Origin: an uncultured Pedosphaera sp.
GTDB taxonomy: Bacteria > Verrucomicrobiota > Verrucomicrobiia > Limisphaerales > Pedosphaeraceae
NCBI GenBank assembly: GCA_903918755.1
Contig: CAIXFN010000113.1
Location: forward strand, 1-64,000
Direction of reading: 5' to 3'
DNA: 64,000 bases
A program made the position numbers and the translations under genes. Below, in pieces: positions 15,520 through 59,130 of this stretch. Each line of letters begins with the position of its first letter. Position 1 is the stretch's first letter. The notes below the pieces were generated by a model, which saw only the letters and a program-made list of their open reading frames with translations, did not search any database and had not been told where the DNA came from.

Positions 15520-15655
15520 CGGTGGTAAATTCCTGCGCCCTGAAACTAATCGACGCCGCCGCGCCTCCGCAACCCCGAAATTGTGATTACTTGGTGCCCG
15601 GGACGGGATTCCGCGCTTGACGGTCCAACTCATCCCGCCGACCCTGATTTACGTG

Positions 15656-16369
15656 ATGCCGGATGCAAAGCAAGGCGTTTTTGCCACCACACATTGGAGT
15701 GTCATCCTGACCGCCGCGCCGAATGATGATCCCGCAGCGGAAGCGGCCTGGGAAAAGCTGGCGGCCACTTATTGGTATCCCGTGTACGCCCATGTGCGCT
15801 ACCGCACCACCTGCCCCCACGAAGCCAAGGATCTCGTGCAGGAATTTTTCGCGACCCTGCTCCGTCGACGTTCGCTGATCAACGTGGCTCCCGAAAAGGG
15901 TAGGTTTCGCAGTTTCCTCCTAACCTCGTTGAAGTATTTTCTTTCAGACCAGTTCCGGCGGGCCAATGCCGAAAAGCGCGGCGGGGGTCGGATTCTGATC
16001 TCGTTCGATGCGCTCGAAGCCGAGGAAAGGCATCGGTTGGAACCGGTTTCTTATGACTCCCCGGACAAACTATTCGATCGTCGCTGGGCCACCGCCCTCG
16101 TTGAACGCGCTTTGGCCCGGCTCCACGACGAACAAGACCAGGCGGGACTTTCATCCGAATTCGCACGACTCAAGGAATTTCTCGCCCGCGAGGTCGAACC
16201 GGGCGAATACGACGCCTTGGCCGCCCAACTGGGCACGGGCACCAATACTGTCGCCGCCGCCGTCCGGCGCTTGCGCCTCCGTTTGCGTGAACTGGCCCGG
16301 GAGGAGGTCCGGCAAACCACCGCCACCTATTTGGATGGGGAGGCGGAATTGCGCAATCTTTTCGGTTGA
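15656..16369 (+). CDS. ECF-like sigma factor of PVC type, cassette 1
   Basis: This is a 237-residue sigma-70-family factor. It opens with the T-T-H-W-S-V-I-L signature shared with the second sigma factor in the window. Region 2 is seen in H-E-A-K-D-L-V-Q-E-F-F and F-R-S-F-L-L-T-S-L-K-Y-F-L, and region 4 in the C-terminal E-Y-D-A-L-A-A-Q-L-G with an Arg/Leu-rich recognition helix. A short extension (Y-L-D-G-E-A-E-L-R-N-L-F) ends the protein and also has a counterpart in cassette 2. No anti-sigma gene is adjacent. Instead a membrane Ser/Thr kinase gene begins 41 bases downstream, suggesting activation by phosphorylation, as described for some kinase-linked ECF groups. An earlier in-frame start at 15617 is possible. 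Confidence 0.88.
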   Translation: MPDAKQGVFATTHWSVILTAAPNDDPAAEAAWEKLAATYWYPVYAHVRYRTTCPHEAKDLVQEFFATLLRRRSLINVAPEKGRFRSFLLTSLKYFLSDQFRRANAEKRGGGRILISFDALEAEERHRLEPVSYDSPDKLFDRRWATALVERALARLHDEQDQAGLSSEFARLKEFLAREVEPGEYDALAAQLGTGTNTVAAAVRRLRLRLRELAREEVRQTTATYLDGEAELRNLFG

Positions 16370-16410: not shown

Positions 16411-19400
16411 ATGCCTGATCCGCACCCCTGCCCCCGTTGCGGCACACTTCCGCTTTCGCCTGGTCCAGGCGGACTCTGCCTGACCTGTGTGGGACGTATT
16501 TCCCTGCGGGGGATCGGAACGGATCCTGGCGAAGGCGACCACGGACGTCACCCGACCCATTTTGGCGAGTTTGCATTGCTGGCCGAGGCAGGTCGCGGAG
16601 CGATGGGAGTCGTCTACCGGGCGCGCCAAAATGGTCTGAACCGGTTGGTGGCGCTCAAGATGGTGTTGAACGGGCAGTTTGCCGGGGCCACCGCGCGTCG
16701 TCGATTTCAGACCGAGGCGGAGGCCGCCGCCCGGCTGGATCACCCGAACATCGTCCCCATTTATGAATTCGGCGAACACGAGGGACGCCAATATTACGTG
16801 ATGCGTTGGGTGGAAGGCGGCCCTTTGACGGGGCGACTCGACCCACGCGCCGCGGCCCACCTGTTGACCACCCTCGCGCGGGCGGTGCAGCATGCGCACC
16901 AAAATGGCGTGCTGCATCGCGACCTTAAACCAGGCAATATTTTGCTGGACGCCTCCCGCACCCCTTTCATCACTGATTTCGGCCTGGCCCGGCACTTGGA
17001 TGGTCCGACTACTCTTACCGCCACCGGTGAGTTGCTCGGCACCCCGGGGTTCATGGCACCCGAGCAGGCCGACGGGGTTCGGGCCATTACCACCGCCGCG
17101 GACATTTGGGGTTTGGGGGCGGTGCTCTATTTTTTGCTCACCGGGCATGCGCCGTTTGAGGGTTTCACCGTTCTGGAGGTGCTGGCGTCCGTGCGGGAAG
17201 GGATCGTCACGCCGCCAGGACGCCACCATCCAAATCTCGATCCAGACTTGGAAACCGTTTGCCTGAAATGCCTGTGTCCAGATCCAGCCGGGCGTTATCC
17301 TTCCGCCGGGGAATTGGCCGATGATCTTGACCGCTGGCTGCGCCACGAACCGGTTCGCGCCCGGCCGGTTTCCCCGGCGGGTCAGCTCACCCGATGGGCC
17401 AAACGCCGGCCGGTGATCGCCACCCTCGGTTTGCTCCTCCTCCTAGTGGGCATGACGGGAGTGGCGGGCATTATCTGGCAATGGCGGCGCGCCGAGCAGG
17501 CGGGCAACCTCGCCCGGCGACGGAGCGCGGAGTTGCTCGCCTTGGTGGATCGGCTGGACCAGGAACGCGCCGAAGACCTCTTTCAGCGCAATGACGGCCC
17601 GGGCGCGGCCGCCCAGTTGGCCCGGCTGCTGCGGCGCGATCCGACCGACCGGGCCGCCGCAGAACGTCTGCTTTCGGCCCTGGCCTTCCGGCCCTTCCTG
17701 GTGCCCGTGGCGGAAACCCCCGCGCTGCCCCGCGCGATCCTGGCGGTGCAAGGCGACCCGCCGAACCAGCGCCTCGTCACCGCCTACAACCAAAACCAAA
17801 TCCAACTCTTTGCCGCCGCCACCGGGCTGCCGGATAGCGCGGTTTTTTGGGGGACGCCACCGGACCCGTTACCCACCTTTTCGCCGGATGGTCGAACGGT
17901 GGCGGTGATCAATTCCAACGGCCTGCCGGAATTGCGGAATGCCACCACCGCGACGCTCCTCACCACCCTGGAGTTTCCGGAACTCAACGCGACCAACCGC
18001 GCCGCCTGGCTCCGCTTCAGCGGGGATGGCCGACGGCTGCTGGCCGCCGCCGCGAATGGCAATGGCGGGGTTTGGACGCTACCAACTGGTCCTTTCTCCA
18101 GTTTGCCCCCGGTAACGAATGGTTTGATGGATGCGGACCTCAACGCTGGGGGCGATTCGGCGAGTCTCGTCACCCGCCAGGGCGAGGTCCAGATTTGGAA
18201 TCTGATCAAAAACCAATTGCGTGCTCGCCTTGCCGCAAACCCGCCCGGTGCGCGTTTGGCTCGCCTTTCCCCCGACGGCCGCCATATCGCGGTGGTCCGC
18301 GGCGATCGCATCCTGGAATGGCGTGAGGCGGACTCGGGAGTGATCGTGCTATCCTGGACGGCTCCGGAGTCGCTGCTCGCCCTGGCTTGTGGTGGGGATA
18401 ACGACTCGGTGATGGCCCAGGGGGAAACCTCGGCGTTTCTTTGGTCGGCCCGCGCCGGCGGCCTGGCGGGCGGACCTTTTGCCCGGCGCGCCGCGGGTGG
18501 TCACCTCGAATTAACACCTTCGGCGGGAAACGCCTTCGCGGTCGCGGAAAATGGTCAGGTGCGCACCTATTTTCGTCGCCCGTTGGCCACCCCGGTCCTC
18601 CTGCGCCATGGCGCGGAAATGCAATCCCTCGCTTGGAACCGGGAAGGCTCGCAACTCCTCTCCGTCGGCAGCAATGGCATGGTCCGGTGCTGGGATCCAG
18701 CCACGGCCACCCTCACTGGCGAATTCCCGCTCCAGGGAACCGTGGCCGCCATAGGGCCGGACTTGCAATCACTGCTTGTCCTTTCAAACCATACCGCGCG
18801 GCTTTATCGCCTCCCTGATGGAGAAGTGCAGGCCAGTGTCAGCGAACCGCAGGCGCCGTTGACCGCTGGCGCCTTGCCTCCGGTCCCCGGCCGAGTCCTG
18901 CTGGGGTGCCTGAACGGATTCGCTGGCACGTGGGATTTGAGTTCCCCTCAATTGACGAACTTTCACCGCAGTCCCTACCAAATCCGGGGTATCTCCTGGG
19001 CGCCGGACAGTCGCCACCGTTTGGTGCGTTGGGGCGTGTATGTGTCTTTGTACGACGACGGCCGGTTCGGCTGGTGGACCAATCTCACCCATGACGGATT
19101 CGTGGCGGATGCGGTTTTCAGTGGGGACTCCAAGTTCCTGGCCACCGCTTCCAGCGATTACCGAGCCCGGCTCTGGGAGGTCGCCACGGGCCGGGAACTG
19201 GCCGCGCTGGGGCACGACGGGCCAGTCAGCCGGGTGCGCTTTAGTCCCGATGGCCGCTGGCTGGCCACCTTGTCCGCGGCAGGGGAGCGCCGGGCCCAAC
19301 TTTGGGATGCGACGAGGCATCATTTGGTGGCCCCGGCCCTTCCCCACCCAGGCAACGTGCTGGATCTTGACTTCAGCCCCGACAGTCTGCGGCTAGCGAC

Positions 19401-19761
19401 AGCCGGCGAAGATGGCACGGTCCGCCTCTGGGACTGTGCCACCGGACTGCCGATCAGTGAGCCATTGCCCCAGGGGTCGCCGGTTCGCCTGGTCCGCTTC
19501 CATCCCTCGGAAGGGGTGATTGCCGCGGCGGCGGCCGATGGCCGCATCCGCCTCTGGCCCTTTCCCCGGGTTTCGCGGGCAGTTTTGGGCCAGATTCCGG
19601 CGTTTGCCGAAGCCATCGGCGGAGTGCGTCTCGGCATTGGCAATAACTACGAAATCACCCCTTGGCCGGAAACTGCCGCGAACCTGCAAAGCGTTTACTC
19701 CGATCCGACCCCGGATTCCGCCACCCGTTGGTTGCAAATCCAAATCCCGCGGGCGAAATAA
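16411..19761 (+). CDS. Membrane Ser/Thr protein kinase with C-terminal WD40 propeller, cassette 1
   Basis: The protein has 1116 residues. It starts with a small zinc-ribbon-like C-P-R-C ... C-L-T-C (residues 7-26). A Hanks-type kinase domain follows (about 51-310): glycine loop G-R-G-A-M-G-V-V, V-A-L-K, catalytic H169-R-D-L-K-P-G-N, D-F-G and M-A-P-E are all intact. A single membrane segment lies at about 335-358, so the kinase is cytoplasmic and the C-terminal half is periplasmic or extracellular. That half (about 420-1116) consists of WD40-type repeats with S-P-D-G-R and L-W-D motifs. The sensor is presumably the propeller and the likely substrate is the sigma factor encoded just upstream; both are inference from gene order. 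Confidence 0.92.
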   Translation: MPDPHPCPRCGTLPLSPGPGGLCLTCVGRISLRGIGTDPGEGDHGRHPTHFGEFALLAEAGRGAMGVVYRARQNGLNRLVALKMVLNGQFAGATARRRFQTEAEAAARLDHPNIVPIYEFGEHEGRQYYVMRWVEGGPLTGRLDPRAAAHLLTTLARAVQHAHQNGVLHRDLKPGNILLDASRTPFITDFGLARHLDGPTTLTATGELLGTPGFMAPEQADGVRAITTAADIWGLGAVLYFLLTGHAPFEGFTVLEVLASVREGIVTPPGRHHPNLDPDLETVCLKCLCPDPAGRYPSAGELADDLDRWLRHEPVRARPVSPAGQLTRWAKRRPVIATLGLLLLLVGMTGVAGIIWQWRRAEQAGNLARRRSAELLALVDRLDQERAEDLFQRNDGPGAAAQLARLLRRDPTDRAAAERLLSALAFRPFLVPVAETPALPRAILAVQGDPPNQRLVTAYNQNQIQLFAAATGLPDSAVFWGTPPDPLPTFSPDGRTVAVINSNGLPELRNATTATLLTTLEFPELNATNRAAWLRFSGDGRRLLAAAANGNGGVWTLPTGPFSSLPPVTNGLMDADLNAGGDSASLVTRQGEVQIWNLIKNQLRARLAANPPGARLARLSPDGRHIAVVRGDRILEWREADSGVIVLSWTAPESLLALACGGDNDSVMAQGETSAFLWSARAGGLAGGPFARRAAGGHLELTPSAGNAFAVAENGQVRTYFRRPLATPVLLRHGAEMQSLAWNREGSQLLSVGSNGMVRCWDPATATLTGEFPLQGTVAAIGPDLQSLLVLSNHTARLYRLPDGEVQASVSEPQAPLTAGALPPVPGRVLLGCLNGFAGTWDLSSPQLTNFHRSPYQIRGISWAPDSRHRLVRWGVYVSLYDDGRFGWWTNLTHDGFVADAVFSGDSKFLATASSDYRARLWEVATGRELAALGHDGPVSRVRFSPDGRWLATLSAAGERRAQLWDATRHHLVAPALPHPGNVLDLDFSPDSLRLATAGEDGTVRLWDCATGLPISEPLPQGSPVRLVRFHPSEGVIAAAAADGRIRLWPFPRVSRAVLGQIPAFAEAIGGVRLGIGNNYEITPWPETAANLQSVYSDPTPDSATRWLQIQIPRAK

Positions 19762-19792: not shown

Positions 19793-19816
19793 CGTCATCG
19801 GCAGCCGCCGATGACG
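19793..19816 (+). promoter_or_regulatory. Perfect hairpin covering the first ATG of the Ig-NHL gene
   Basis: CGTCATCGGC (19793-19802) pairs perfectly with GCCGATGACG (19807-19816) around an AGCC loop. The ATG at 19811 is buried in the 3' arm, and a second in-frame ATG starts at 19817 immediately after the stem. There is no T-run, so it is a poor terminator for the kinase gene. It could instead mask translation or be a protein-binding inverted repeat. Confidence 0.5.
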
Positions 19817-20356
19817 ATGAATACATTAAATATGGCAAAATCGCTGAAAAATTTTCGAAATCTGGCAGTCAGAATCCCGGCGCGGCCGGTAAAGACCCTG
19901 CGGTTACCCAACCTGTTGCTGGTCCTGCTGTTGGGGTTGGTTTCTCCGGCCGGGGCCGTGGGCTATCGCTTTTATGCCACCACCTCCCTCCCAACATTAA
20001 GTATCAGATTCGGCAACCCGACGGACTACGCCTCCGCCACCCCCGCCCCGGTGTCGATCGACCTCGGCCCCAATGGCACCTACAATCCCACCGCTGGTGG
20101 CAGCGTCTCCTTGATCGAATCTTATCCCACGATCTTTGAAGACAACGGCACGCATTACGGCGGACCGGGCGATAGTTCCTCAAGCCTGGCCTTCTCGGCC
20201 GGTGTGGGTCCCATCACCTATAATTTCGCCTCGGAAATCAATAACCAGGATCAAGCCGTGGGTTACTTTACTTCCAGCAGCACCGGTGGGGGGGGCCTGC
20301 TCTGGTTTTTCGATCAGCCCGTCACGAATATTTATTTTCCGTGGACTGGACCTTGA
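19811..20356 (+). pseudogene. 5' fragment of a frameshifted secreted Ig-NHL protein
   Basis: This open frame encodes 181 residues: a basic start, a hydrophobic signal segment (L-L-L-V-L-L-L-G-L-V, cleavage near A-G-A-V-G), then a glycine/serine-rich extracellular segment with N-Q-D-Q-A-V-G-Y. It ends in Y-F-P-W-T-G-P and a stop. The continuation (T-L-T-Y-E-N-F-S-G-K-G) is found one frame back from about 20341, so one base appears to be missing near 20338-20341 in a gene that originally ran to 22374. Starts at 19817 or 19832 are also possible. It lies 49 bases after the kinase of cassette 1. A sequencing error cannot be excluded. Confidence 0.65.
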
Positions 20357-22374
20357 CCTATGAAAATTTCAGCGGGAAGGGCTTTGGGATCTTCAACGCC
20401 TCGATCAACGTGGAAGGCTTCGGGGATATTCCCATTTATCCCACGTCCGGCAGTGATGCCACAATTTATCAGGGCACCTACCACGGCAACGTTTCGGGCA
20501 TCGCCCACGACTCACGTCTTGCCATTGGCTATAGCACCTCTTTTTATCAGGGCCAGTCTGCGTTCGGCGACGGCAAGGTGAGTCTCGGCATCAGCATTGT
20601 GGCCGATGGCGTCCCGCTGCCCCAACCCCGGATCACCGCCCAGCCCGTCGGCGGGAACTTTCCCACCGGCGGCACGGCCCAACTGGGGGTGACGGTGAAC
20701 GGCGCTGCCCCCCTGAGCTATCAATGGTGGCAAAATGGCCAGCCGTTGATTGGGCAAACGGACACCAATCTGGTGCTGGGCAGTCTCTCGCTGGCCAATT
20801 CCGGGGACTACCAAGTCGTCATCACCAACCCTTCCGGCGCCATCACAAGCGCCGTCGCTCATGTCAGCATCGGTGATCCTCCGGTGATCACGTCCCTGCC
20901 CGCGCCGCCGGTCTATATAGCAGGCAGCAACGCGACGCTGAGCGTGCTCACCACCGGTGCCGGTCCCCTTACCTATCAATGGCTGTTCCATGGCACCAAC
21001 CTCCCCGTGGACCGCCTTACCACCTTCGCAGGAAATGGGAGCAGCGCGTATTCCGGGGACGGCGGGCCCGCCACCGCGGCGGCCCTCCGTAATCCCGCGA
21101 ACCTCGCGTTCAGCCGGGATGGGCGCCTGTTGATCGCTGACACAGGTAATCAGCGGGTCCGGGCCGTCGGATCGAACGGAAAAATTAACACCTTTGCCGG
21201 TACCGGAACCGCGGGTTATTCGGGCGATGGCGGTGCCGCTAGCGCCGCCAAACTCAATTCGCCGGGGGGAATTTCCTTCGATCTGAATGGAAACCTGCTG
21301 GTCGCAGACTCCGCCAATCATCGCGTGCGCCGGATTGGCACCAATAATCTCATCACCGTCCTGGCGGGCAATGGCACGGCCGATGGATTCTTTGGTCAAA
21401 TCGGGGACAATGGCGCGGCCACCAGCGCCAATATTAATACCCCCGCCGCCGCCGTGGCGGACGCGAACGGGAATGTGTTCATCGCCGACACCCTGCACCA
21501 TCGGATTCGCAAAGTGGCCACCAACGGGGTCATCACCACCATCGCCGGCAACGGCGCACCGGGATATTCCGGCGATCGACTGCGCGGTCCCTACGCCCAG
21601 TTGAACGCCCCCGCGGGACTGATCTTGGATCGCGCCGGCAATCTGTTGATTGCGGACAAGTCCAATAACTGCATTCGCGCCCTTTCTCCGGGCGGACTTA
21701 TCAGCACCCTGGCGGGGAATGGCACGCGGGGATTCGCCGGTGATGGCGGTGCGGCTACCAATGCCCAATTCAATCTCCCCGCCGGGGTCACCGTGGATGC
21801 CGCCGGCAATGTCTATATCGCCGACACCGGTAACCACCGCATCCGGCGGGTCAATCCGCAAGGAATTATCAGCACCCTGGCCGGGACCGGCGTGGCCGGC
21901 TTCTCTGGCGATGGCGGAGCCGGAAAGACCGCCCAGTTCAACGGCCCGGCCGATGTCACGGTGGATGACGCCGGCAATCTCTTTATCGCGGACAAAGCGA
22001 ACCACCGGATCCGACAGCTTTCGCCCATTACGACGTCACTTCGACTGGACAATCTGAACCCCGCCCAGTTGGGAGACTATCAGGTGATTGTCTCCAGTCC
22101 GTATGGCAGCGTGTCCAGCAGTATCGTCTCCTTGACCCTGCCCGTGACGATTCCGCCTCCCTTGCAAATCAGCAGCCTGGGCGGGTTCCCGCTCGTGTTC
22201 TGGTCAGACGATGGTGCCCCCCACAGCCTGCAATCCAGCACGAATCTGGGGTCCGGCATCTGGTCGCCCGTGCCGGCGTTGAACTTCACCAACTCCGGCG
22301 TCACCCCCGCCCAGTTGGGATTCCAAATCACCAACCCGGCCAGCGGTGCCGCAACCTTCTACCGTCTGCAATAA
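20341..22374 (+). CDS. 3' part of the frameshifted secreted protein: Ig-like domains with an inserted NHL propeller
   Basis: The frame has 677 codons from a GTG, but it lacks its own signal peptide and overlaps the 5' fragment by 16 bases, so it is best read as the remainder of one broken gene. In order it has a linker (1-95), an Ig-like domain (about 97-180, Y-Q-W-W-Q-N-G to S-G-D-Y-Q-V-V-I-T-N), and the first half of a second Ig domain (181-223, T-Y-Q-W-L-F-H-G). Then come six NHL repeats (about 227-560) built on A-G-N-G or A-G-T-G, G-D-G-G-A-A, G-N-L-x-I-A-D and N-H-R-I-R-x-V, and then the second half of that Ig domain (564-600, L-G-D-Y-Q-V-I-V-S-S-P-Y-G). The C-terminal module ends T-F-Y-R-L-Q. 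The role is probably extracellular binding. Confidence 0.8.
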   Translation: MDWTLTYENFSGKGFGIFNASINVEGFGDIPIYPTSGSDATIYQGTYHGNVSGIAHDSRLAIGYSTSFYQGQSAFGDGKVSLGISIVADGVPLPQPRITAQPVGGNFPTGGTAQLGVTVNGAAPLSYQWWQNGQPLIGQTDTNLVLGSLSLANSGDYQVVITNPSGAITSAVAHVSIGDPPVITSLPAPPVYIAGSNATLSVLTTGAGPLTYQWLFHGTNLPVDRLTTFAGNGSSAYSGDGGPATAAALRNPANLAFSRDGRLLIADTGNQRVRAVGSNGKINTFAGTGTAGYSGDGGAASAAKLNSPGGISFDLNGNLLVADSANHRVRRIGTNNLITVLAGNGTADGFFGQIGDNGAATSANINTPAAAVADANGNVFIADTLHHRIRKVATNGVITTIAGNGAPGYSGDRLRGPYAQLNAPAGLILDRAGNLLIADKSNNCIRALSPGGLISTLAGNGTRGFAGDGGAATNAQFNLPAGVTVDAAGNVYIADTGNHRIRRVNPQGIISTLAGTGVAGFSGDGGAGKTAQFNGPADVTVDDAGNLFIADKANHRIRQLSPITTSLRLDNLNPAQLGDYQVIVSSPYGSVSSSIVSLTLPVTIPPPLQISSLGGFPLVFWSDDGAPHSLQSSTNLGSGIWSPVPALNFTNSGVTPAQLGFQITNPASGAATFYRLQ

Positions 22375-22386
22375 TCGCCGGCGGGC

Positions 22387-25300
22387 TTATTTCAAGGTTT
22401 TAAGGAACGCCAGCAAATCCGTGACTTCGCCCGGTTTGAGGGCGTCCAGCAGCCCGTCGGGCATCATACTCTGCTTGGTATACCACGAGCGCTTTACGTT
22501 GCTCTTGGGCACCCGCAGATCGGCAGTGTTCGGGCGGCGCAGGATGAGCGCCTCGCCGTCCTCCGACATCAAACGCCCATCCAACACTTCGCCATCCTTC
22601 TGCTCGATTCGATACAGGCGGTAGCCCGGCTCCATTTGCGCGCTGGGCGTCAGGATATTCCGCAGCAGGGATTCCACCCCGTTAGCCCCGGCGCCGTTCA
22701 GCACCGGGCCGATCTGGCCACCCTGCCCCGCCACCGTATGGCAGACCTGGCAGACGGCGGTAAACACCGCGCGGCCGCGTTCCACGTCGCCGGGTTGCTC
22801 CGCCAGTCCGCGATATTTCGCGAACACTCCCGCCACCGCCTGGGCCTGGGCCGCGGTCAGGAGCGTGGGGAAATCCTGCGTCTTCTCCACCCGGGCGCCC
22901 CCCTGCGGCTTGCCCCAGTTGGTGCCGGAGAAATGATGCACCAACCCTGGCGCGGTTTCCCCGTCGTAACTGCGATCAAACTCCGCCCGAACCTCCGCGG
23001 CTGTCCGCACCCGGTCCCAGACCCGGAACTCACTCAACCAACCCGCCGTCCCCTTGGCCGGCGTGGTCCACGCGATCCGGCAATGCGCAAACTTTTCCGG
23101 TGCCGCCTGCGATTCCGCATTATCCAGTTCGCCGTTGATAAAAATCTGGAATTTGCCCGCGGCATCACGCGTCACGGCCAGGTGCGTCCAGACATCGGGA
23201 ACGATTTTCTTCTTCGCCACAATGGCATCCCGCGACCGCCCGGCGTCATAGACCCGGAAAGTGCTGTCGTAGAAATTCATATCCACCACCCCGGGAGCGC
23301 CCAGGATGCCGTCGTTGTTGTCGATGCCGGGATCCAGTTTCATCCAGGTTTCCACCGTAAACGCACCGTCCAGCGTAATGTCGGATTCGGTCCAGGCATT
23401 GTCCTCGCCGTTCAACCGCAGGCAGGGCCGGAACAGGGACGCCATGTCCCCCAGCAACTCCTTTAAATCCGCGGAATCGCCCAGGACAGTTTGCAATTTA
23501 TCCAACGCGGTCCCGTCCACCTCCGTCTTCGCAATCACTCCGGACTTCAGGGCCGCCACCACGCTCTGGGCGCCCGCCCGGGTGCCGGTAAGGCGGTCGA
23601 GCGCCAGCTTGCGTTGGGCACTCTTCAGATCAGGCCAGAAGTCGAGCAACATCCCCGGGCCCGCCTCATTCTTGCTCGCCGCGAGCGCCGCCAAAGCCTC
23701 ATTCCGCACGTTCTCCGCCGCGGCGAACCGGGCGATGTTCTGGAACAGCTCCACATAGGTGCCGTGTAATTCCCGCAACGCGCGCAACGCCGCCAAGCCT
23801 TGGGGCGAAAGCGCCCGCCCGCCGTCGCTGGTGCTGCCGGCAAAGTTCTGCAACCACGCCCGGCGCAACACGTCCGTCACCGGCCCTTCCAAATCCACCA
23901 GTTGAAACTCACTCGCCACGCGCAGGCCCAAATCCACCGCGGTGGAATCCACCCGCAGCAGGCCTCTCCCCGCCTCTACCAGCCAAGGCTTCAGCTTGGT
24001 GGCGTCGAACCGGCTCCGTACCTGGAGCAATCCTTCGATCAGGTTATTGCGGGCCGTGGCATTCTCCAGCGCGTCCTTGAAGGCGTCGCCCACCCCGGGC
24101 TCATCCATAAATTGCGCCAGACGCAGAATTTCCTCCTGCCCCGGGGGCCGACCGAGCTGCGGCACCAGTTGCGCCACCCGGCTCGCGCTCAGTTTCGGCT
24201 CCAGGGCCAGCGTGGCCACCAGGCGATTCTCCACCGGCAGCGCTTTTGCCGCATCACTATCCAGGAAAGCCGCCACGGCTGCCGGATGCTTCTCCATTTC
24301 CAACCGCGCCAAATACCGCTGAAACTCCCGCTCGTAAGCCACGCCCGCCTTGATGGTGCGCCCGTTCGCCGTGCTTTTCGTGGTGGGTTCCGGCAACGGT
24401 GCGCGCGCCGACCGCACCAGCAATTCCACGGCACTTCCAGCAATCGCCGAGGTGGCATTCGCCTCGGCGCCCTGCAGATACTGGCTGAGCAACGTCCCCG
24501 CAGTCCGGATCGTCTCGGATCGAACTTCCGGGTCGCCATCATAAATCAGGGGCGTGATGGCCGTCAGTGAGGCGGCCACCGGCAGGAAATCATCCCGGTG
24601 CGCGCGCAAGGCTTCGCGCCGGATGTTCCGATTCGGATCGGCCAACAACGGCTTGAGGAGTTCCAAGTCCACCGCGTGCAACCCCTCCAACGCCCACAGA
24701 CAGGCGATCCGTTTCGCCACGGTCTGGGCTTTGTCCCCCACCAGCTGTTTTAGTTTGGGCGTCAGTTCGCGCAGGCCCCGATCCGTAATCGCCTGCCAGG
24801 CCAGATGACTTTGCGGCAGCGAGGCGCCCCCCAACTTGGCGACCAATTCTTCGCCCGTCAGTTTCATGAAATCCGGCACCTCCAGCGGTTTCATGTCCTG
24901 GTGTCGTACGCGCCAGATGCGCCCGCGCTTCTTGTCCCGATCCGGATGATTCCGCGCCACCTCGTTGTGGGAAATAATCTTGTTGTACCAATCCACCACA
25001 TAGAGGCAGCCATCCGGCCCCAGGTGAATGGACACCGGCCGGAACCACTCATCGCTGGATTGAATGAAATCCGGCAGCTTTTGATAACGGAACCCCGTCC
25101 CATCGAGGGTAACGCGAATGGCCTGGATCATCCGGGTGATGGGATTGGCCAGGTAGAATATCCCCGCATACGCCTCGGGAAAGGCGGTGGTGTCGGACAG
25201 CGTCAAACCGCTCAGTCCCGTGCCGCCCATCTCAAAATCCGGCGCGGTGCCGGGAAATTCCGGCGCATAGCTTTTGAATTGCGCGTCGGAACAGCCGGGG

Positions 25301-26817
25301 TAGTTCGCGTATTCATGAAACGGCATCATGGGATACCCGTAATCATTCGCCTCCTGGATCCACGCCTGCCCGTTGCTGTCCAGCACCAAGCCCCAGATGT
25401 TGCAGGGGCCCTGGCTGGTGACGTCAAAGTCCGAGCCGTCATACCGGAACTTCGCCATTCGAGTCTGATCAAATTGTTGTTCCTGGCCCCGGGTGGTCTT
25501 CACCTTCCCGTAATTGAACGCCCCCTGTGCCATCCAGATCCAGTTGCCCGGTGCCCGCGTGAATTGATGCGGAAACAGGTGTGAATCCTGGACGCCGAAC
25601 CCGCTCAAAATCACCTCCCGCTTGTCCGCTTTGCCTTCGCCCTTGGTGTCGCTGGCGAAGACGATCTCCGTGCCATGCTGCACATAGACGCCATTCTTGT
25701 AGGGTAAAATCCCCTCCGGAATCGCCAACCCGTCCACAAACACCCGTGGCTTCGGCGAATAACCCGTCGGCGACTTCTCATCCCGGTCGAACACCACCAC
25801 CTTGTCCTTGCCCCGGCTGGCATACAGTTCCTTGGCGGCCGCTGGATTCTCATTCCCGTCCATCGGATATTCCAGGGCCGTCATGCTCCATAGATTCCCG
25901 TGCAAATCCCAGTCCACCGTCACAAATTTGCCGATCCCCTCGGATTCCTCCGCCACCAACTCGATCTGAAATCCCGGCGGCAACGTGAACCGACCGCGCT
26001 CTTCCGCCGCCGTCACCGGCAACGAGGTGCTCGCGGTCTGGACACTCGCCCGATCATTGCCGGTGTTGTCCGCCGCCTTTTTCGGTGCCGGCGCGCCGAT
26101 GAACTTCTTTCCCGGGGGCGTGGGCGGCAGTTCCTCAATGGTGATGCTTTTGACCTGGGCCAAGCCCATGCCGCCGCCGTGAATCTGGATGCCAAATTTG
26201 CCCCAGTCCGGGATGGCGGGATCCGCTTCCACATAATCCGTCCCCATCACCCCGTTGATCCAGGTCGTGATGTGCGGTCCGTCCGCCCGGATCACATAAT
26301 CATTCCATCCCTGGAGGTCCGGATTCATGGCCGGCCGGAGGGTTTTCATATCCGAAGGCGACACCACCCGGTTCCGGCGCGATTCGTCATAGAGGCAACC
26401 ATACCAGGCCGGCTCACCATAGTCCGCCTGGTACCCTGCCATCTCTGAATTATTCGGCACCCGTTGGGAACGAAGCTGAAACCCGGAATTGATAAACCCA
26501 TTGGTGCCCCGCAACCGGATCTGCAAGCGCACAATGAAATTGGTGTAATCCCGCGTGCTGGCAAGAAAATCATTCTCCTTCACCGTCTCCGTCAGCGATC
26601 CGCCAGAAATCAGTCCCTCCTCGACCCGCCACAACCTGGATCCCTCCCAACCCGTCAGCGTCTGGCCATCAAACAGCGACACCGTCTTCCCCACCGGAGG
26701 CACCGGCTCCGCCGCCGGACAGTTCCCGCCGATCCCCGCCAGGCAAACCACCGCCAATACGGACCAAATCCGCCGCCACTCCAGCCATTTTTCACACCAC
26801 ACGCCTCGGGTATTCAT
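22387..26817 (-). CDS. Secreted DUF1080 / PVC-type dehydrogenase-like / HEAT / LamG / cytochrome c fusion protein
   Basis: The protein has 1476 residues with a signal segment. In order: a DUF1080 (3-keto-disaccharide hydrolase) domain at about 46-240 beginning S-L-F-D-G-Q-T-L-T-G-W; a membrane-bound dehydrogenase-like propeller domain from about 279 (L-P-P-G-F-Q-I-E-L-V-A-E); a helical HEAT-like region (about 660-1000); a LamG/concanavalin-type domain (about 1126-1286); and a PVC-type cytochrome c with C-Q-V-C-H at about 1355 and a distal methionine-rich end. It probably oxidises or cleaves a carbohydrate in the periplasm and passes electrons through heme; this follows from the domains. I chose the ATG at 26817, which has GGGGG 3 bases upstream. 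It is divergent from the cytochrome gene at 27062 and converges with the Ig-NHL gene. Confidence 0.9.
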   Translation of the reverse strand: MNTRGVWCEKWLEWRRIWSVLAVVCLAGIGGNCPAAEPVPPVGKTVSLFDGQTLTGWEGSRLWRVEEGLISGGSLTETVKENDFLASTRDYTNFIVRLQIRLRGTNGFINSGFQLRSQRVPNNSEMAGYQADYGEPAWYGCLYDESRRNRVVSPSDMKTLRPAMNPDLQGWNDYVIRADGPHITTWINGVMGTDYVEADPAIPDWGKFGIQIHGGGMGLAQVKSITIEELPPTPPGKKFIGAPAPKKAADNTGNDRASVQTASTSLPVTAAEERGRFTLPPGFQIELVAEESEGIGKFVTVDWDLHGNLWSMTALEYPMDGNENPAAAKELYASRGKDKVVVFDRDEKSPTGYSPKPRVFVDGLAIPEGILPYKNGVYVQHGTEIVFASDTKGEGKADKREVILSGFGVQDSHLFPHQFTRAPGNWIWMAQGAFNYGKVKTTRGQEQQFDQTRMAKFRYDGSDFDVTSQGPCNIWGLVLDSNGQAWIQEANDYGYPMMPFHEYANYPGCSDAQFKSYAPEFPGTAPDFEMGGTGLSGLTLSDTTAFPEAYAGIFYLANPITRMIQAIRVTLDGTGFRYQKLPDFIQSSDEWFRPVSIHLGPDGCLYVVDWYNKIISHNEVARNHPDRDKKRGRIWRVRHQDMKPLEVPDFMKLTGEELVAKLGGASLPQSHLAWQAITDRGLRELTPKLKQLVGDKAQTVAKRIACLWALEGLHAVDLELLKPLLADPNRNIRREALRAHRDDFLPVAASLTAITPLIYDGDPEVRSETIRTAGTLLSQYLQGAEANATSAIAGSAVELLVRSARAPLPEPTTKSTANGRTIKAGVAYEREFQRYLARLEMEKHPAAVAAFLDSDAAKALPVENRLVATLALEPKLSASRVAQLVPQLGRPPGQEEILRLAQFMDEPGVGDAFKDALENATARNNLIEGLLQVRSRFDATKLKPWLVEAGRGLLRVDSTAVDLGLRVASEFQLVDLEGPVTDVLRRAWLQNFAGSTSDGGRALSPQGLAALRALRELHGTYVELFQNIARFAAAENVRNEALAALAASKNEAGPGMLLDFWPDLKSAQRKLALDRLTGTRAGAQSVVAALKSGVIAKTEVDGTALDKLQTVLGDSADLKELLGDMASLFRPCLRLNGEDNAWTESDITLDGAFTVETWMKLDPGIDNNDGILGAPGVVDMNFYDSTFRVYDAGRSRDAIVAKKKIVPDVWTHLAVTRDAAGKFQIFINGELDNAESQAAPEKFAHCRIAWTTPAKGTAGWLSEFRVWDRVRTAAEVRAEFDRSYDGETAPGLVHHFSGTNWGKPQGGARVEKTQDFPTLLTAAQAQAVAGVFAKYRGLAEQPGDVERGRAVFTAVCQVCHTVAGQGGQIGPVLNGAGANGVESLLRNILTPSAQMEPGYRLYRIEQKDGEVLDGRLMSEDGEALILRRPNTADLRVPKSNVKRSWYTKQSMMPDGLLDALKPGEVTDLLAFLKTLK

Positions 26818-27061
26818 GATCCCCCAATTTGACGAATCCTTTCCCCAAGTAAAGGAAGTTTGCAACCTGCCCCGCGCATAGCTCACTCCAATAATCGGAG
26901 CGGCCGAGATCAGGCGCTGAAATTCCGTTTCCCTCCCCGCCCCCGCCAGCCGACTCTCCAGCCAAAATTCGTTGTCCGGTCGGCAAGATTCTGCCAGCTT
27001 AGGTCATGGCACAATCCGATCACCGTGAGTTCGACTCCAACGGACCAGCACCCATTTAGCC

Positions 27062-30000
27062 GTGGCCTGCCTCTTTCATTTCTTCCGTCGTCCATCGCCC
27101 CAACCGGCCGCCCGCCCGCAGCCCCTGCCCTCGTCTCAAACGCCCCACGTCCGGTTTTCTTTTGCGGGTATACTGTTCCTTATTTTCCTGGCCGCGACGA
27201 CACGAGCCGCCGAGGACTCTCCGGCCCGCTTGAGCCAATCCTTCGACGCCAAGGTCCAGCCCTTTTTGCGTAACTACTGCCTTTCCTGCCATGGCGAAAC
27301 GAAAACCGAAGGGGAACTGGATCTGCGAACCTATTCCTCGCTCGCCGCGGTGGAAAAAGATGACCGCCGCTGGGCTTTGGTCGGAGAGCGCATCGCCAGC
27401 CATGAAATGCCGCCAAAAAAGGCCAAAGCACACCCGACGCCGGCGGAATGGCAGGCCGCGGCCGACTGGTTTTCGACGCTGCGGGACTACGAAATGCGGC
27501 GGCACGCGGGCGATCCCGGAGTGGTGCTGGCGCGCCGGCTCAGCAATGCTGAATATGACTACACCATCCGTGACCTCACCGGCTTCGACCTCCAGCCCAC
27601 CCGCGAATTCCCGCTGGATCCCGCCAATCCCGCCGGTTTTGACAATTCCGGCGAATCCCTGGTCATGTCCCCGGCCTTGCTGGACAAATATTTGCAAGCC
27701 GCCCGGGAAGTGGCCAACCACCTGGTCCTGAAACCCCGTGGCTTTGACTTTGCCCCCTATTCCATGCTGGCGGAGACGGACCGCGACAAATACTGCGTCA
27801 CCCGCATCATTGAATTTTATCACCGGCAAAACAGCAACTACCTCGATTACTTCCAAGCCGCCTGGCGGTTCAAACACCGGGCTGCGCTGGGCCAACCGCA
27901 CGTCACCCTGGCGGAAGTCGCTACGCAAAACCACGTCAGTACCAATTATTTGGCCACCGTGTGGTCCACGCTGGAAGAAACGCCGGCCGAAGTCGGTCCG
28001 CTGGTGAAACTCCAAACCCTCTGGCGCGAGTTACCCGCTCCCTCCCCCGTTGGCCCGGCCACGCCGCCGCCTGGTTGTGCCCAAATGCGGGATTACGTCG
28101 TCCAATTGCGCCGGAAGGTCGAACCGCGTTTCCTCAATATCGTCGCCGGCAAACTCGACGCCAGTTCGCAACCGTTCCTCATTTGGAAGAACGTCCAATA
28201 TGCCACCCACCGGATGGAATTTGATCCGGCCCAACTCCAGGTCGAAGACGAGCCCACGCCGGAACCCGATGATACCCCCGAACCCGGCACTGCCAATGAA
28301 TTCGGTCCCGGCCACACGCAGTTGATCAAGAACACCCCCGGCGATCCCGATCTGTTCGTGTCCGCCGGCCAACGCACCCGCTACGAGGCCGCCTTTGCCA
28401 GCTTTTGTCGCGTCTTCCCGGACCGGTTTTACATGGAGGAACGTGGGCGGAATTATTTCGACACGTCGAAGGATCGCGGTCGCTATTTGAACGCCGGCTT
28501 TCACAGTCTCATGGGCTATTTCCGGGATGACGCCCCCCTCTCCGCGCTTTTGCTGGATGATGCGGGACGTCAGGAACTTGATAATTTGTGGGCGGAACTG
28601 GAATTCATCGCCTCCGCCACCAGCCGCATGTATATCGAGTTTTATTCCTCCGGCCGCCGGGAGCGCCGGGGCCAGGCCGACACCGGAACCGCTGAACCGG
28701 CCGAACCGGATTCCCCAGCGCAGGAAATCACTTCCGAAGTGCTGATCAAACAATTGGAGGCCGATTTCCTGAGTCGGGCCGGGACGAGCAACGCCATTGC
28801 GCGCCAGGCCATTGAGGATTATTTCACGGGAATCAACCACGGCATCCGCACGGTCGAAAAGGCCCGCCAGGAGGCGGAGCCATTTCATCTGGCCGCGCTC
28901 CAACGATTCGCCGCCCGGGCTTATCGGCGTCCGTTGAGCCCGGCGGAGAAAGAGGAATTGACCGCGTTTTACCGGACCGCCCGGGACCGAGATGGACTGG
29001 ACCACGAAGCCGCCTTGCGCGAAGCCCTGGTCAGTATTTTGCTCTCGCCGGATCTGACCTATCGCATTGATCTCGTTGAAAACCGGCCCGGAATCCAACC
29101 CTTGTCCGACTATGACCTCGCCAGCCGGCTGAGTTATTTTCTGTGGTCCAGCCTGCCCGACGACGAATTGTTGTCGCACGCCGCCGCCGGCGATTTGCAC
29201 CAACCGGCGGTCATTGCCGCCCAGGCGCGCCGGATGCTGCGGGATCCGCGCATTCGGGCGCTCGCAGTCGAATTCGGCGGCAATTGGCTGGAATTTCGAC
29301 GCTTTCTGGATATCAACACGGTGGACCGTGAACGGTTCGGCGGCTTCACCCCCGAATTGCGCGCGGCCATGTTCGAGGAACCCGTCCGCCTGCTGCTGGA
29401 TGTCATCCAAAAGGATCGCCCAGTCCTGGATTTGTTGTACGCCCGGGACACATTTGTAAACGCCCCGCTGGCAAGGCATTATGGCATGTCGGCCGCGAAT
29501 AATCCCGCGGGGCAATGGTGGCAGGTGGTCAATGCCATTGACTTCGACCGCGGCGGACTGCTCCCGATGGCCGCTTTCCTCACCAAGAATGCTCCCGGCC
29601 TCCGCACCAGTCCCGTCAAACGCGGCAACTGGGTGGTCAAAAACATCCTGAGCGAACGCATTCCCCCGCCCCCGCCCACCGTCCCGGAATTGCCGAAGGA
29701 TGAGGCCAAGTTGGATTTGCCCCTGCGCGACCTCCTCGCCCAACATCGGGCCGATCCCAACTGCGCGGGCTGCCATGCACGGTTTGATTCGTTGGGCCTG
29801 GTCTTTGAAGGCTTTGGCCCCACCGGCGAACGCCGGGAAAAGGACCTGGCCGGCCATCCCGTGGATGCCTCGGCGACATTCCCAGGCGGCTTCGAAGGTC
29901 GGGGCGTGCCCGGCCTGCGTGATTACATCCACGCCCATCGGGAAACCGATTTTCTGGATAATCTCTGCGGTAAACTCCTCGCTTGCGGGCTGGGGCGCAG

Positions 30001-30148
30001 CCTCCTATTCTCGGATGAACTTACCATTCAGGAAATGCGCCGCCAATTGCAGGCGCACGACGGTCGCTTTGCCAGTCTGGTGGAGACTATTGTGACGAGT
30101 CCCCAGTTCCTGCAAAAACGGGGACAGCCGGAACTAGCGGAAAAATAA
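27062..30148 (+). CDS. Planctomycete-type cytochrome protein (DUF1587/DUF1595/DUF1592/DUF1588/DUF1585)
   Basis: This is a 1028-residue exported protein from a GTG start; no ATG offers a better signal peptide. A planctomycete cytochrome C domain at about 55-105 has C-L-S-C-H. DUF1587 follows (R-L-S-N-A-E-Y-D-Y-T-I-R-D-L-T-G), then DUF1595 (about 608-670), DUF1592 (about 680-810, L-S-Y-F-L-W-S-S-L-P-D-D-E-L), DUF1588 with a second heme motif C-A-G-C-H at about 899, and DUF1585 (about 963-1020). The family's biochemistry is unsettled; it is thought to act with DUF1552 proteins in oxidative attack on polysaccharides. A Glu/Pro/Asp-rich linker lies near 390-420. The DUF1552 gene follows after 2 bases. 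Confidence 0.92.
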   Translation: MACLFHFFRRPSPQPAARPQPLPSSQTPHVRFSFAGILFLIFLAATTRAAEDSPARLSQSFDAKVQPFLRNYCLSCHGETKTEGELDLRTYSSLAAVEKDDRRWALVGERIASHEMPPKKAKAHPTPAEWQAAADWFSTLRDYEMRRHAGDPGVVLARRLSNAEYDYTIRDLTGFDLQPTREFPLDPANPAGFDNSGESLVMSPALLDKYLQAAREVANHLVLKPRGFDFAPYSMLAETDRDKYCVTRIIEFYHRQNSNYLDYFQAAWRFKHRAALGQPHVTLAEVATQNHVSTNYLATVWSTLEETPAEVGPLVKLQTLWRELPAPSPVGPATPPPGCAQMRDYVVQLRRKVEPRFLNIVAGKLDASSQPFLIWKNVQYATHRMEFDPAQLQVEDEPTPEPDDTPEPGTANEFGPGHTQLIKNTPGDPDLFVSAGQRTRYEAAFASFCRVFPDRFYMEERGRNYFDTSKDRGRYLNAGFHSLMGYFRDDAPLSALLLDDAGRQELDNLWAELEFIASATSRMYIEFYSSGRRERRGQADTGTAEPAEPDSPAQEITSEVLIKQLEADFLSRAGTSNAIARQAIEDYFTGINHGIRTVEKARQEAEPFHLAALQRFAARAYRRPLSPAEKEELTAFYRTARDRDGLDHEAALREALVSILLSPDLTYRIDLVENRPGIQPLSDYDLASRLSYFLWSSLPDDELLSHAAAGDLHQPAVIAAQARRMLRDPRIRALAVEFGGNWLEFRRFLDINTVDRERFGGFTPELRAAMFEEPVRLLLDVIQKDRPVLDLLYARDTFVNAPLARHYGMSAANNPAGQWWQVVNAIDFDRGGLLPMAAFLTKNAPGLRTSPVKRGNWVVKNILSERIPPPPPTVPELPKDEAKLDLPLRDLLAQHRADPNCAGCHARFDSLGLVFEGFGPTGERREKDLAGHPVDASATFPGGFEGRGVPGLRDYIHAHRETDFLDNLCGKLLACGLGRSLLFSDELTIQEMRRQLQAHDGRFASLVETIVTSPQFLQKRGQPELAEK

Positions 30149-52554: not shown

Positions 52555-55143
52555 ATGAAACTCAAGCATTCATCCTCCCTCTGGCTGGGAGTTCTCCTCC
52601 TGGCCGCCGCCGGATTCCCGCGGGCCTCCCACGGTCAGGCGACTAACCACCCCGTGGTCCTGAGCGGAAATGTCCATTTCAGTAACATCAACCCGGCTAT
52701 TCTCAGCCTCTTGAACCCGCCCGGCGACGAAGGCATGAGCAATATCGTCGTCGAGGCCACCAGCCTCCCCCCCGCCGACTATCGTGACTCGACCTCCGAC
52801 AGCCAGCCCGTCACCTCCCGCACCAGCACAGCGTATGAAATCACTGTCGATTCCGGCCCTCCGCCCGGCATTGCTTACAGCGTATCCCCGCGCGTGGTCT
52901 TGCAAGGGATTCGCCAGGTGTATTACTTCACCCCTGCGACCAACGCGCCGGTGATCACGGGCATCACCCCCACCCCGCTGGATTTCTCGGAGAGCGTCGG
53001 GGTGCTGACCGTTCGTTTCGTGGATCCGGCGGGCCTGCCGGTTTCGGTCACCGGGGGACATATTTATGCCACCGACCCCGTCACGGGCAATTATACCGGT
53101 CTCCTCGATCCCATCCCGGACGGCAGCACCGAACAACGCATCTACCTGCAGGGCGGTCAATCCCATAACCTCGCCATCACCATCCAGCGGGGCACAAACT
53201 ATTATACCGACCGGATCGACACCGCGCTGGCCACGAATGTGGTGGTGACCGCCGATGATTTCACGACCGTGGACATGTTGATCCCCGGCGCCCAAAACCT
53301 GGCGAAAATCACGGGCCAGATCAAAATGCTGCGGGAATTTGAATTGACGGTGGCGGGCGACACCAACCAGGCGGTGCAATACCCTGATTACACCACGGTG
53401 ATCGCGAACTACGGCCCCTTCAGCAGCCAACGCTGGGGCGCGCTCGGCGGCACCAACTTCACGGTACCATCCAGTGGTGCCTTTACCCTCTCGAATGTCG
53501 TACCTTCGACGCTGGACCCCGCTTCCGCCGGCTACCAAATGTCCGCCCAGATGGTATTCCGCACGAACCGTAACATTGAGATCTTTGTCACTCCGACGCT
53601 CAATACGGCCCTCAATCCCCCTTTGACAGTCACCGACGGAGCGACGCTGGATTTGAGCAATTTGTTCGTCATCGATCCCGGCTATCTCCGCGGGCGCATC
53701 CTCCTGCAGGGCCCCAACGAGATCGCCGGGCGTTCCTCCCTGTTCAGGGGAGTGCTCCATTCCGGCGACGATGACGCCAATCTGGACGGCATTCCCGACT
53801 CCCTCGGAACCTACGGCGTCTATTGGTCAACAATCGAAGCGGTGGGAGTGGATCGGTTGGCTACCGGCGCCACGCTCTCAGCGGGCAACGGGGTGGGCTA
53901 CGGCGATTTTCCCGGGGCCTTCAACCCCGTCACGAGCGCGTATGAGGGGAATTACGAGCTCGCGCTGGGCGGATTGCGCGGCGAGCGCAGCATTTGGAAA
54001 CGGCAATACCTCTCACTGACCCTCGACAGTGGGGCCGTGACCAACGACAACGATTATTTTTACAATGTGTTTTATCTGACCGACAACACCACCAACGACG
54101 TGGAGGTGGTGCCTGGACAGCCCGTCACCAACGATGTGAGCTATTGCTTCAGCGAAGTGATCATCAGCTTTAATTCCACGACCGGCACCTTCTACAACCC
54201 GAACGTCAAGGCCAGCTCCGGAGCTTTCGCCGGCACCAACTTTCTTGGCAATCCCGCCGATTACAATGTGAGTCTGCAGGCGATGTACGGCACCCCAAAC
54301 ACCGTGGCCGCCGCGACCAACACCGGCCAGGTGGTCATGTACCTGCCCGAGGGCACCTACACGCTCTATCCCAGCGTCACCCCCGCGAGCGGCACCTACG
54401 CGGTGACCGGCCTGGCTCCGATTACGCTGACGGTCGGCTGCGGGCAGTGCATCGCCGTGGAAACCTGCCTGCAACTCAACTTGAATGCCCCCGCCATGAG
54501 CAAGTCGCCCGTGGTGCCGGTCACCGGCTCCGTGAGCAGTTGCGGCAACGATGTGGCCAAGATCACCTACCGGTTGAATGGCGGCGCCGAGCAGGTCATC
54601 TGCGCGGGTTGTGGGGCGAATCCAAGTTTTGCTTTCAACCTCACCCTGGCTGGGGAATGCACCGACAATCAACTCACCGTCACCGCCACCGATGTGAGCG
54701 GCGGACTCAGTTCCATCACCACCAGCCTCCGTTACGACGCCACGCCACCCGTCATTCAAACTCCCGCGGATCTGGTGGTTCCGGGCTGCGGCACGAATGG
54801 AGGGGTTGCCACCTTTACCGTCACGGCCACCGATAACTGCACGGGTCCGGTCAAGGTCAGTTATACCCCCCCTTCCGGCTCGTCCTTCCCGGCGGGCACG
54901 AATACGGTGGTGTGTGTCGCCACGGATGCGGTCGGCAACACGAGCCAAAGCACGTTCAAAGTGATTGTGCTGGGCGGCTCGCAGTTGGCCATTCAATCGG
55001 CCGTGATCGTCACCTGGAGTTGCGGGGGCGTCCTCCAGGTGGCCGATGACCTCAATGGACCGTGGGCAGACGTTCCCGGAGCCACCAGTCCGTACGCCGC
55101 CGCCGTCGGTTCCGCCAACAAATTCTACCGGGTGCGGAACTAG
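52555..55143 (+). CDS. Secreted HYR-domain protein with FYR C-terminal module
   Basis: The protein has 862 residues and a signal peptide ending S-H-G-Q-A. Most of the chain (about 30-640) is strand-rich, with many Thr, Asn and Gly, and matches no domain I recognise. Residues about 640-720 contain paired cysteines (C-G-Q-C, C-A-G-C-G) in an Ig-like stretch. Residues about 727-805 form a HYR domain, with T-P-P-V-I, A-T-D-N-C, F-P-A-G-T-N-T-V and A-T-D-A-V-G-N. The end (W-S-C-G-G-V-L-Q-V-A-D-D, then K-F-Y-R-V-R-N) is a short form of the C-terminal module seen in two other proteins here. A strong terminator follows, before the sigma factor of cassette 2. Confidence 0.82.
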   Translation: MKLKHSSSLWLGVLLLAAAGFPRASHGQATNHPVVLSGNVHFSNINPAILSLLNPPGDEGMSNIVVEATSLPPADYRDSTSDSQPVTSRTSTAYEITVDSGPPPGIAYSVSPRVVLQGIRQVYYFTPATNAPVITGITPTPLDFSESVGVLTVRFVDPAGLPVSVTGGHIYATDPVTGNYTGLLDPIPDGSTEQRIYLQGGQSHNLAITIQRGTNYYTDRIDTALATNVVVTADDFTTVDMLIPGAQNLAKITGQIKMLREFELTVAGDTNQAVQYPDYTTVIANYGPFSSQRWGALGGTNFTVPSSGAFTLSNVVPSTLDPASAGYQMSAQMVFRTNRNIEIFVTPTLNTALNPPLTVTDGATLDLSNLFVIDPGYLRGRILLQGPNEIAGRSSLFRGVLHSGDDDANLDGIPDSLGTYGVYWSTIEAVGVDRLATGATLSAGNGVGYGDFPGAFNPVTSAYEGNYELALGGLRGERSIWKRQYLSLTLDSGAVTNDNDYFYNVFYLTDNTTNDVEVVPGQPVTNDVSYCFSEVIISFNSTTGTFYNPNVKASSGAFAGTNFLGNPADYNVSLQAMYGTPNTVAAATNTGQVVMYLPEGTYTLYPSVTPASGTYAVTGLAPITLTVGCGQCIAVETCLQLNLNAPAMSKSPVVPVTGSVSSCGNDVAKITYRLNGGAEQVICAGCGANPSFAFNLTLAGECTDNQLTVTATDVSGGLSSITTSLRYDATPPVIQTPADLVVPGCGTNGGVATFTVTATDNCTGPVKVSYTPPSGSSFPAGTNTVVCVATDAVGNTSQSTFKVIVLGGSQLAIQSAVIVTWSCGGVLQVADDLNGPWADVPGATSPYAAAVGSANKFYRVRN

Positions 55144-59000: not shown

Positions 59001-59130
59001 TGGACGGGAGGTGGTGACGGAGCATGATTTGGAGACCGGCAACTGGGTCCGCTTTCTGCCCGCCGGATCCACTCTCGCTGTGGGCACCGTCACCAACACC
59101 ATTCGGCTTCTCCCGGCCCCGGCGGAGTGA
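56050..59130 (+). CDS. Membrane Ser/Thr protein kinase with C-terminal WD40 propeller, cassette 2
   Basis: The protein has 1026 residues and the plan of cassette 1: a C-P-T-C ... C-L-K-C zinc-ribbon-like start, a kinase domain (about 48-310), one membrane helix (about 336-357), a helical linker and a WD40 propeller (about 423-1026) with L-A-T-G-S-I-D-G-T-I-R-L-W type repeats. The glycine loop, V-A-L-K and D-F-G are intact. The catalytic loop reads H169-R-D-L-T-P-A-N, with T173 where nearly all Ser/Thr kinases have lysine, and the usual A-P-E is P-P-E. Activity may therefore be altered. The propeller lies outside the cytoplasm, so the protein can couple an external signal to the adjacent sigma factor; that link is inferred from gene order. 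Confidence 0.91.
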   Translation: MNRQKTCPTCAAVIPADGADGLCLKCLGRLGFLTEEDVAGNGLLRLGDYEVLNEIGRGGMGVVYRARQLGLNRIVALKVLLHGPFASGEFRERFRNEARVVATLRHPNIVAVYEVGEQSGSHFIALEFIDGPSFATLARERPLPAKRAANYLKIIAEAVDYAHRNGVLHRDLTPANILLDPFDQPRVSDFGLAKLRSGDSALTVTGQILGSPSYMPPEQAAGKFANSEPTADIYSLGAILFELLTGRPPFQGETLQFILAQVQTAEPVTPRRLNPAIPEDLQTICLKCLQKEPARRYATARELADDLDRFLTGQPIRARPVSWPERTWLFCRRRPLLAALSAGLVLAVTLGVLGVLWEWRQAVARAAELRLNLYAADIAVASQAIQQGDFGLARRTLDALHPRPGETDLRGFEWRYLWARRRHDQLATLTGHTLAVTSVGFAPDGRLVASGSLDATVLLWDSATQKLVTNLPSARGPAWISAFTPDGKFLVTGSAGGIQFWNTQNWRHHTNFPGTLAALSRTGDWLATSTAESPFYFEAPGRISLWNWRTGVMARQFDEPGRAVALSPDGALLAASVTNGITVWDTASGRQRYHWPTTNSVWSLDFSPDGRHLVTAGWAREVAIWSIESEAPPRILGGHSLNVWSAAFSPDGAAIGTVSSDQTFGLWDARTLERQATLFGHGSEVWCLAFSPDRKLIASGGKDQSVLLWPAAPAPVPPEIPNDRDFHPFLSPDGKWLLTFQPKTGRGQLWQTSDQALINANIGVGGLTVGFSRDSREVAIFDEAGGRLQFVAHTKDISTRTVPLAGSAPAAGQFLFAEMSPEQTVFFAVHESGQIRLWDSASGGARQTITGPRLAAAQADHDRFHRAARQTFRTATLSAYGRYLALSLVPENFARLYDCATGREFQLTGHRDFVSGMAFSPDGTQLATGSIDGTIRLWRTADGTLLRELPGHMEETTDVAFSPDGLTLASVGLRNSLKLWHLPTGREVVTEHDLETGNWVRFLPAGSTLAVGTVTNTIRLLPAPAE

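Follow-up and report, generated by a model that had tools for sequence, protein, structure and literature searches.

The window (the whole 64,000-nucleotide stretch of Pedosphaera sp. DNA analysed here) contains a 677-amino acid ORF, P0001 (20341..22374, from the ORF listing; all features of this gene are on the plus strand), that carries an Ig-like domain interrupted by a β-propeller. The evidence laid out below makes it very probable that this is a genuine nested domain, in which a closed six-bladed NHL propeller of ~334 aa occupies the C'-E loop of an I-set-like Ig domain of ~85 aa, within a multi-domain protein that is probably secreted or displayed at the surface.

An Ig domain split into two complementary halves

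In a Pfam search, P0001 shows six stretches of NHL (E 6e-37) and matches I-set/Ig_3 in full at one place only, Ig1 (20623..20874). This uninterrupted I-set/Ig_3-type domain, which comprises strands A to G in the structural model (region residues 5-86), directly precedes the interrupted one and serves as an internal control. The second domain, Ig2, spans 20875-22143 overall; a first-pass annotation of the sequence had placed it at 20881-22140, right to within a few bases. Its first half (20875..21015, aa 179-225, DPPVITS...YQWLFHGTNLPVDR) holds strands A, B, C and C', and its second half (22027..22143, aa 563-601, ITTSLRLDNLNPAQLGDYQVIVSSPYGSVSSSIVSLTLP) holds strands E, F and G with the Tyr corner, both assigned from profile and model.

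Taken alone, each half of Ig2 scores below the cut-off: the first aligns only to positions 1-41 of the Ig_3 profile and 1-43 of I-set, and the second only to I-set 55-86. Once the guest is removed, window Ig2 matches Ig_3 over 1-77 of 78 positions (35.3 bits, cut-off 30) and I-set over 1-86 of 90 (24.0 bits, cut-off 23.7). Ig1 follows the same pattern when cut at the equivalent place, with halves covering 1-41 and 56-86, and the whole domain covering 1-86 above the cut-off. Hence the first-pass proposal of an Ig domain interrupted by six NHL repeats and then resumed, with the preceding Ig as its control, is confirmed by the profiles. A chance tandem order of Ig, NHL and Ig can be ruled out: neither flank amounts to more than half a domain, and the two cover complementary parts of the profile. 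These data strongly support the view that the two flanks are complementary halves of one Ig domain.

Modules with the same split recur elsewhere, as described below, and in 35 of them the host could be compared with 68 intact Igs. Excised hosts matched both Ig models over most of the profile, passing at least one cut-off, in all 10 modules tested. Median host length after excision was 82 aa for the 35 nested hosts, versus 83 aa for the intact Igs. The strand-C Trp is kept in 35/35 nested hosts and 66/68 intact Igs, and the Tyr corner in 34/35 and 59/68, respectively. The insertion point is identical across all 35 modules; the guest usually starts 9-11 residues past the strand-C Trp and is followed, usually 15-18 residues past its end, by the Tyr corner. 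It could be argued that the Ig halves are merely decaying remnants on either side of a pasted-in propeller, forming a functionless broken domain, particularly as the window gene seems to be frame-shifted upstream of the ORF. However, nested hosts preserve the core residues of the Ig fold at least as well as intact Igs do, the length of the domain does not vary, and the nested arrangement persists in many families, all of which makes decay highly improbable.

The ORF itself is probably less than the whole gene. It starts with GTG and lacks a signal peptide, and its frame is open upstream to about 20245. In another frame, an ATG at 19811 begins an upstream part of the gene (19811..20356) that remains open to 20356 and encodes a signal-peptide-like N-terminus followed by an N-terminal region. 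The product of 19811..20356 had no Pfam match, and within its own genome matched only itself well. The frame change is located between about 20245 and 20356, and a run of eight G (20288..20295) is one candidate site for it. With the signal-peptide part in a different frame, the window copy may be disrupted; the frame change may be genuine or may stem from an error in sequencing or assembly. In either case the nesting itself is unaffected, as the same genome contains copies of the module in uninterrupted frames.

Downstream of Ig2, P0001 ends in a domain (22144..22371, ending ...ATFYRLQ) without a Pfam match. A C-terminal domain of this kind, ~70 aa long, ending in '...FYR[VAL]x' and likewise lacking a Pfam match, is found at the end of many secreted-type proteins, among them at least three ORFs of the window and further ORFs in records L043-L051. 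It could be a putative sorting or attachment domain. An 862-aa ORF at 52555-55143 ends '...KFYRVRN' and has no Pfam match at E 1e-6. Elsewhere in the window, a sigma-70-like factor lies beside a Ser/Thr kinase-WD40 propeller fusion (15617-16369, 16411-19761), and a second kinase-WD40 fusion is found at 56050-59130. Planctomycete-type cytochrome genes occupy 22387-26886 (minus strand), 27062-30148 and 60646-63873 (minus strand), and include a 1499-aa fusion of 3-keto-disaccharide hydrolase, DUF7133, LamG and cytochrome c, along with PSD/PSCyt proteins.

The guest propeller and the predicted structure of the module

The guest (21016..22026, aa 226-562) was identified as a six-unit NHL β-propeller by Pfam NHL and TEN_NHL, by the structural model and by structural matches. 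Its units start at 21016, 21184, 21352, 21532, 21700 and 21868, and are 56, 56, 60, 56, 56 and 53 aa long. Both Pfam models register six stretches, with scores far above their gathering thresholds (NHL, PF01436, 124.2 bits versus 20; TEN_NHL, PF25021, 130.2 bits versus 27.1). Structural searches gave Z scores of 42-45 to the NHL propellers 7djm, 6g7w and 9ifo, and among the matches listed there were only propellers, teneurins and other propeller-bearing chains. The best match is 9ifo, a bacterial teneurin-like protein (sequence E 3e-80, structural Z 45). Its NHL domain, together with plant SUPPRESSOR OF QUENCHING 1, NHLRC2 and the teneurins, make up the nearest solved relatives of the guest.

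Each unit opens with the outer d strand (LTTFAG...), continues with a and b, and closes with the third strand, c (RIRxV), and the model shows this d-abc order six times. Because the units begin with the outer strand, the N-terminal d strand of the guest would close the last blade, joining the C-terminal a, b and c strands in a 'Velcro' blade. Closure of this type would place the two ends of the guest side by side, as is needed for insertion into a loop.

To obtain a model of the module, we ran AlphaFold2 on residues 93-613 as a single chain, with an alignment of the window sequence and 13 related modules (14 sequences). Mean pLDDT was 89.4 and pTM 0.75. In Ig1, DSSP assigns strands A (region residues 5-8), A' (13-16), B (21-28), C (34-39), C' (42-43) and E (51-54), a short helix (59-61), and strands F (63-71) and G (74-86). 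In Ig2, it assigns A (90-93), an A' bridge (99), B (106-113), C (119-124) and C' (127-128), then the guest (132-470), and after it E (474-477), a short helix (482-484), F (486-494) and G (497-507, as 497-500 and 504-507). Thus, in the model, the strand order of Ig2, A-B-C-C'-[guest]-E-helix-F-G, equals the pattern of Ig1. In Ig domains strand E sits in the sheet of A and B, so the assignment of E as a strand in Ig2 would imply a partner in the first half.

We then repeated the prediction on a version truncated right before the second half of Ig2. For residues 101-110, 111-120 and 121-130, mean pLDDT dropped from 79, 81 and 88 to 69, 65 and 68, and strands 106-109 (part of B) and 119-124 (C) were gone. 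Neither Ig1 nor the propeller lost strands or confidence. Since the deletion removes strand C and part of B, the first half needs the second half in the prediction, the behaviour to be expected of a split Ig. The DSSP pattern and the deletion test together support the packing of the predicted Ig2 halves as one sandwich. Structure prediction had been suggested in the first-pass annotation as a check on the nesting, and its outcome is in agreement: the interrupted domain shows the strands of the intact one, and loss of the late half affects the early half only.

One could instead envisage that each half finds its complement in another chain or in a neighbouring module, through strand swapping that would yield a polymer. 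Some proteins do contain several modules in a row, whose halves could cross-pair, and AlphaFold2 was run on single chains only. Nevertheless, the single-chain model is confident, and in it the early half of Ig2 relies for its fold on the late half of that chain; many proteins, that of the window included, have just one module; and the topology of the closing blade brings the guest's ends together. For these reasons we regard strand swapping as improbable, and we favour pairing of the halves within the chain.

Recurrence and origin of the module

In its own genome the window module is one of five. Of the remaining four, two share a 1768-aa protein that carries a pro-kumamolisin (S53) activation domain, a third belongs to a further S53-like protein, and the fourth to an LRR protein of the BspA type. 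To assess the wider distribution, we surveyed 245 genomes of the window's own order at a cut-off of E ≤ 1e-85. Matches were found in 12/245 genomes and 10/115 genera, with up to five per genome, and most covered the full module including both Ig halves. In samples of the class (236 genomes) and of the phylum (241), matches came solely from genomes of the window's order. A scan of named genomes by C-terminal junction motif, which samples genomes rather than enumerating them, added modules from MAGs that carry the label Limisphaerales, Verrucomicrobiales or Verrucomicrobia; at least two of the proteins concerned have three modules each. Two further records were considered as carriers and rejected: in the proteobacterial record L096 no NHL-bearing frame was found, and the cyanobacterial record L102 has NHL units without Ig halves.

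Altogether there are at least 35 distinct modules with the same split, all in one verrucomicrobial order and up to three per protein. A search for the same split in verrucomicrobial proteins had also been suggested at the outset, and across the 35 modules each half is always a half and never a full domain. The modules occur together with S53 peptidase, BspA LRR, IPT/TIG and InlB-like B-repeat domains and with other Igs. The nesting had been expected to be rare, and this holds in the sense that our survey finds it confined to one order; it does not hold within genomes and single proteins, where the arrangement recurs. Hence the nested module is heritable rather than a one-off.

Guest length ranges from 275 to 346 aa in these 35 modules, with a mode of 334 (equal to six units) and a single guest of 607 aa. 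Guests of 275-278 aa correspond to about five units. By record, the 607-aa guest is in L081, 275-aa guests are in L083 and L086, and a 278-aa guest is in L064; L017 and L085 have at least 10 NHL units. Judged from these sequences, hosts differ in how many NHL units they contain (about 5, 6 or 11); this would imply five-bladed or double propellers, or else repeats collapsed in MAGs. Some of the length outliers may be MAG assembly errors, as the repeats are alike.

To address the origin of the arrangement, we built a tree of the 35 excised hosts and 68 intact Igs from 73-83 columns. The nested label requires 4 changes on this tree, compared to a mean of 29 for shuffled labels, and 0/500 shuffles were as low. 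With junction columns left out, the label needs 8 changes, and a tree with the nested hosts as one clade is 23.7 lnL above the free search (p-AU 0.67). Support in the host tree is weak and the columns are few. Sequence motifs at the junctions also recur: linkers such as LLYAGYP and HFAGxP, the linker motif [LF]xAG[YFD]P and the SPYG turn are found in many modules, and PYG, PFG or PYY occurs in 17/35 nested hosts, compared to PYG or PFG in 2/68 intact Igs. A Mantel test for co-inheritance of host and guest showed no correlation (r 0.09, a value reached in 1411 of 5000 permutations). Either exchange between guests and hosts or saturated distances could account for this; exchange of guests is possible given the uncorrelated distances and the low resolution of the tree.

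These results bear on whether NHL propellers were inserted independently, many times, into the same Ig loop. The poor resolution of the tree, the 8 label changes seen without junction columns, the variable unit number of the guests and the lack of correlation between host and guest distances would all fit such a history. Clustering of nested hosts far above expectation, the higher likelihood of the one-clade tree and the recurrent linker motifs argue against it, and we consider repeated insertion unlikely, if less so than decay or strand swapping. Most simply, the arrangement arose once and was then copied, a reading that is not rejected; there is strong support for the module having spread as a unit.

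Precedents, possible function and significance

Domain insertions are common. Inserts are typically compact, 50-200 residues long with close termini, and average 133 residues in insert-consistent and 241 in host-consistent families (PMC13114784). The guest described here is ~4 times the size of its host (334 versus 85 aa). An NHL guest has a precedent in YenB/YenC2, where an NHL domain is inserted in a YD-repeat domain (PMC5851990), although the host there is a YD-repeat shell and not an Ig. In teneurins, the order is FN-plug, NHL and then YD shell (PMC13018210, PMC5851990). Teneurins and teneurin-like proteins (6fb3, 9ifo) share the six-bladed NHL type with the window protein, and in them too a β-sandwich domain precedes NHL; however, teneurin NHL lies between FN-plug and YD shell and is not reported to be nested in the FN domain, whereas NHL of the window is inside the Ig. 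The Pfam matches of the window protein include no YD/RHS families. Proteins with NHL and Ig in tandem (e.g. L050) occur in the same bacteria and combine these domain types in one chain, but with the propeller between complete Igs.

Of designs with a domain nested in an Ig, the integrin hybrid/βA pair is the best known. In the integrin β subunit, the βA (vWFA) domain is inserted in the Ig-like hybrid domain (PMC3585415). Like the nested module, this places a large guest, which in integrin is a ligand-binding domain, in an Ig-like domain on a surface receptor, mounted through two linkers. The guests differ, that of integrin β being vWFA and that of the window NHL, and the window protein has no VWA Pfam match and lacks the integrin architecture. 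Our literature search, whose coverage is incomplete, found no description of NHL or other propellers inside Ig domains. Both component folds are known, and their combination appears to be undescribed.

What might the nesting achieve? Fusions to S53-type peptidases, LRRs, TIG, InlB-like B repeats and Igs, together with the signal-peptide-like upstream frame, indicate that the module is likely outside the cytoplasm, and these sequence features would be consistent with surface display. We envisage that the two ends of a single Ig loop hold both ends of the propeller, which lie side by side. The Ig host would then act as a two-point mount, keeping the propeller rigidly on an Ig stalk, and the two covalent links could help the closing blade to stay shut. 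One face of the propeller would be left free for binding, and a putative binding or adhesive role can be envisaged for it. In its most complete form, our proposal is a mobile module of single origin that duplication and recombination have carried into secreted and surface proteins throughout one order, present in tandem copies and with differing numbers of blades, and in which Ig and propeller form one mechanical unit with a two-point mount like that of integrin hybrid/βA. Taken as a whole, we see about an even chance that this proposal is correct.

Annotation pipelines would report a propeller and one Ig too few in proteins of this kind, and such domains are therefore probably miscounted. The two-point mount could be of use to protein engineers. 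A large guest in a small host also allows a clear test of whether nesting is governed by end-to-end geometry and not by size. Within this verrucomicrobial order, the same host with guests of variable length offers a natural series for the folding of discontinuous domains.
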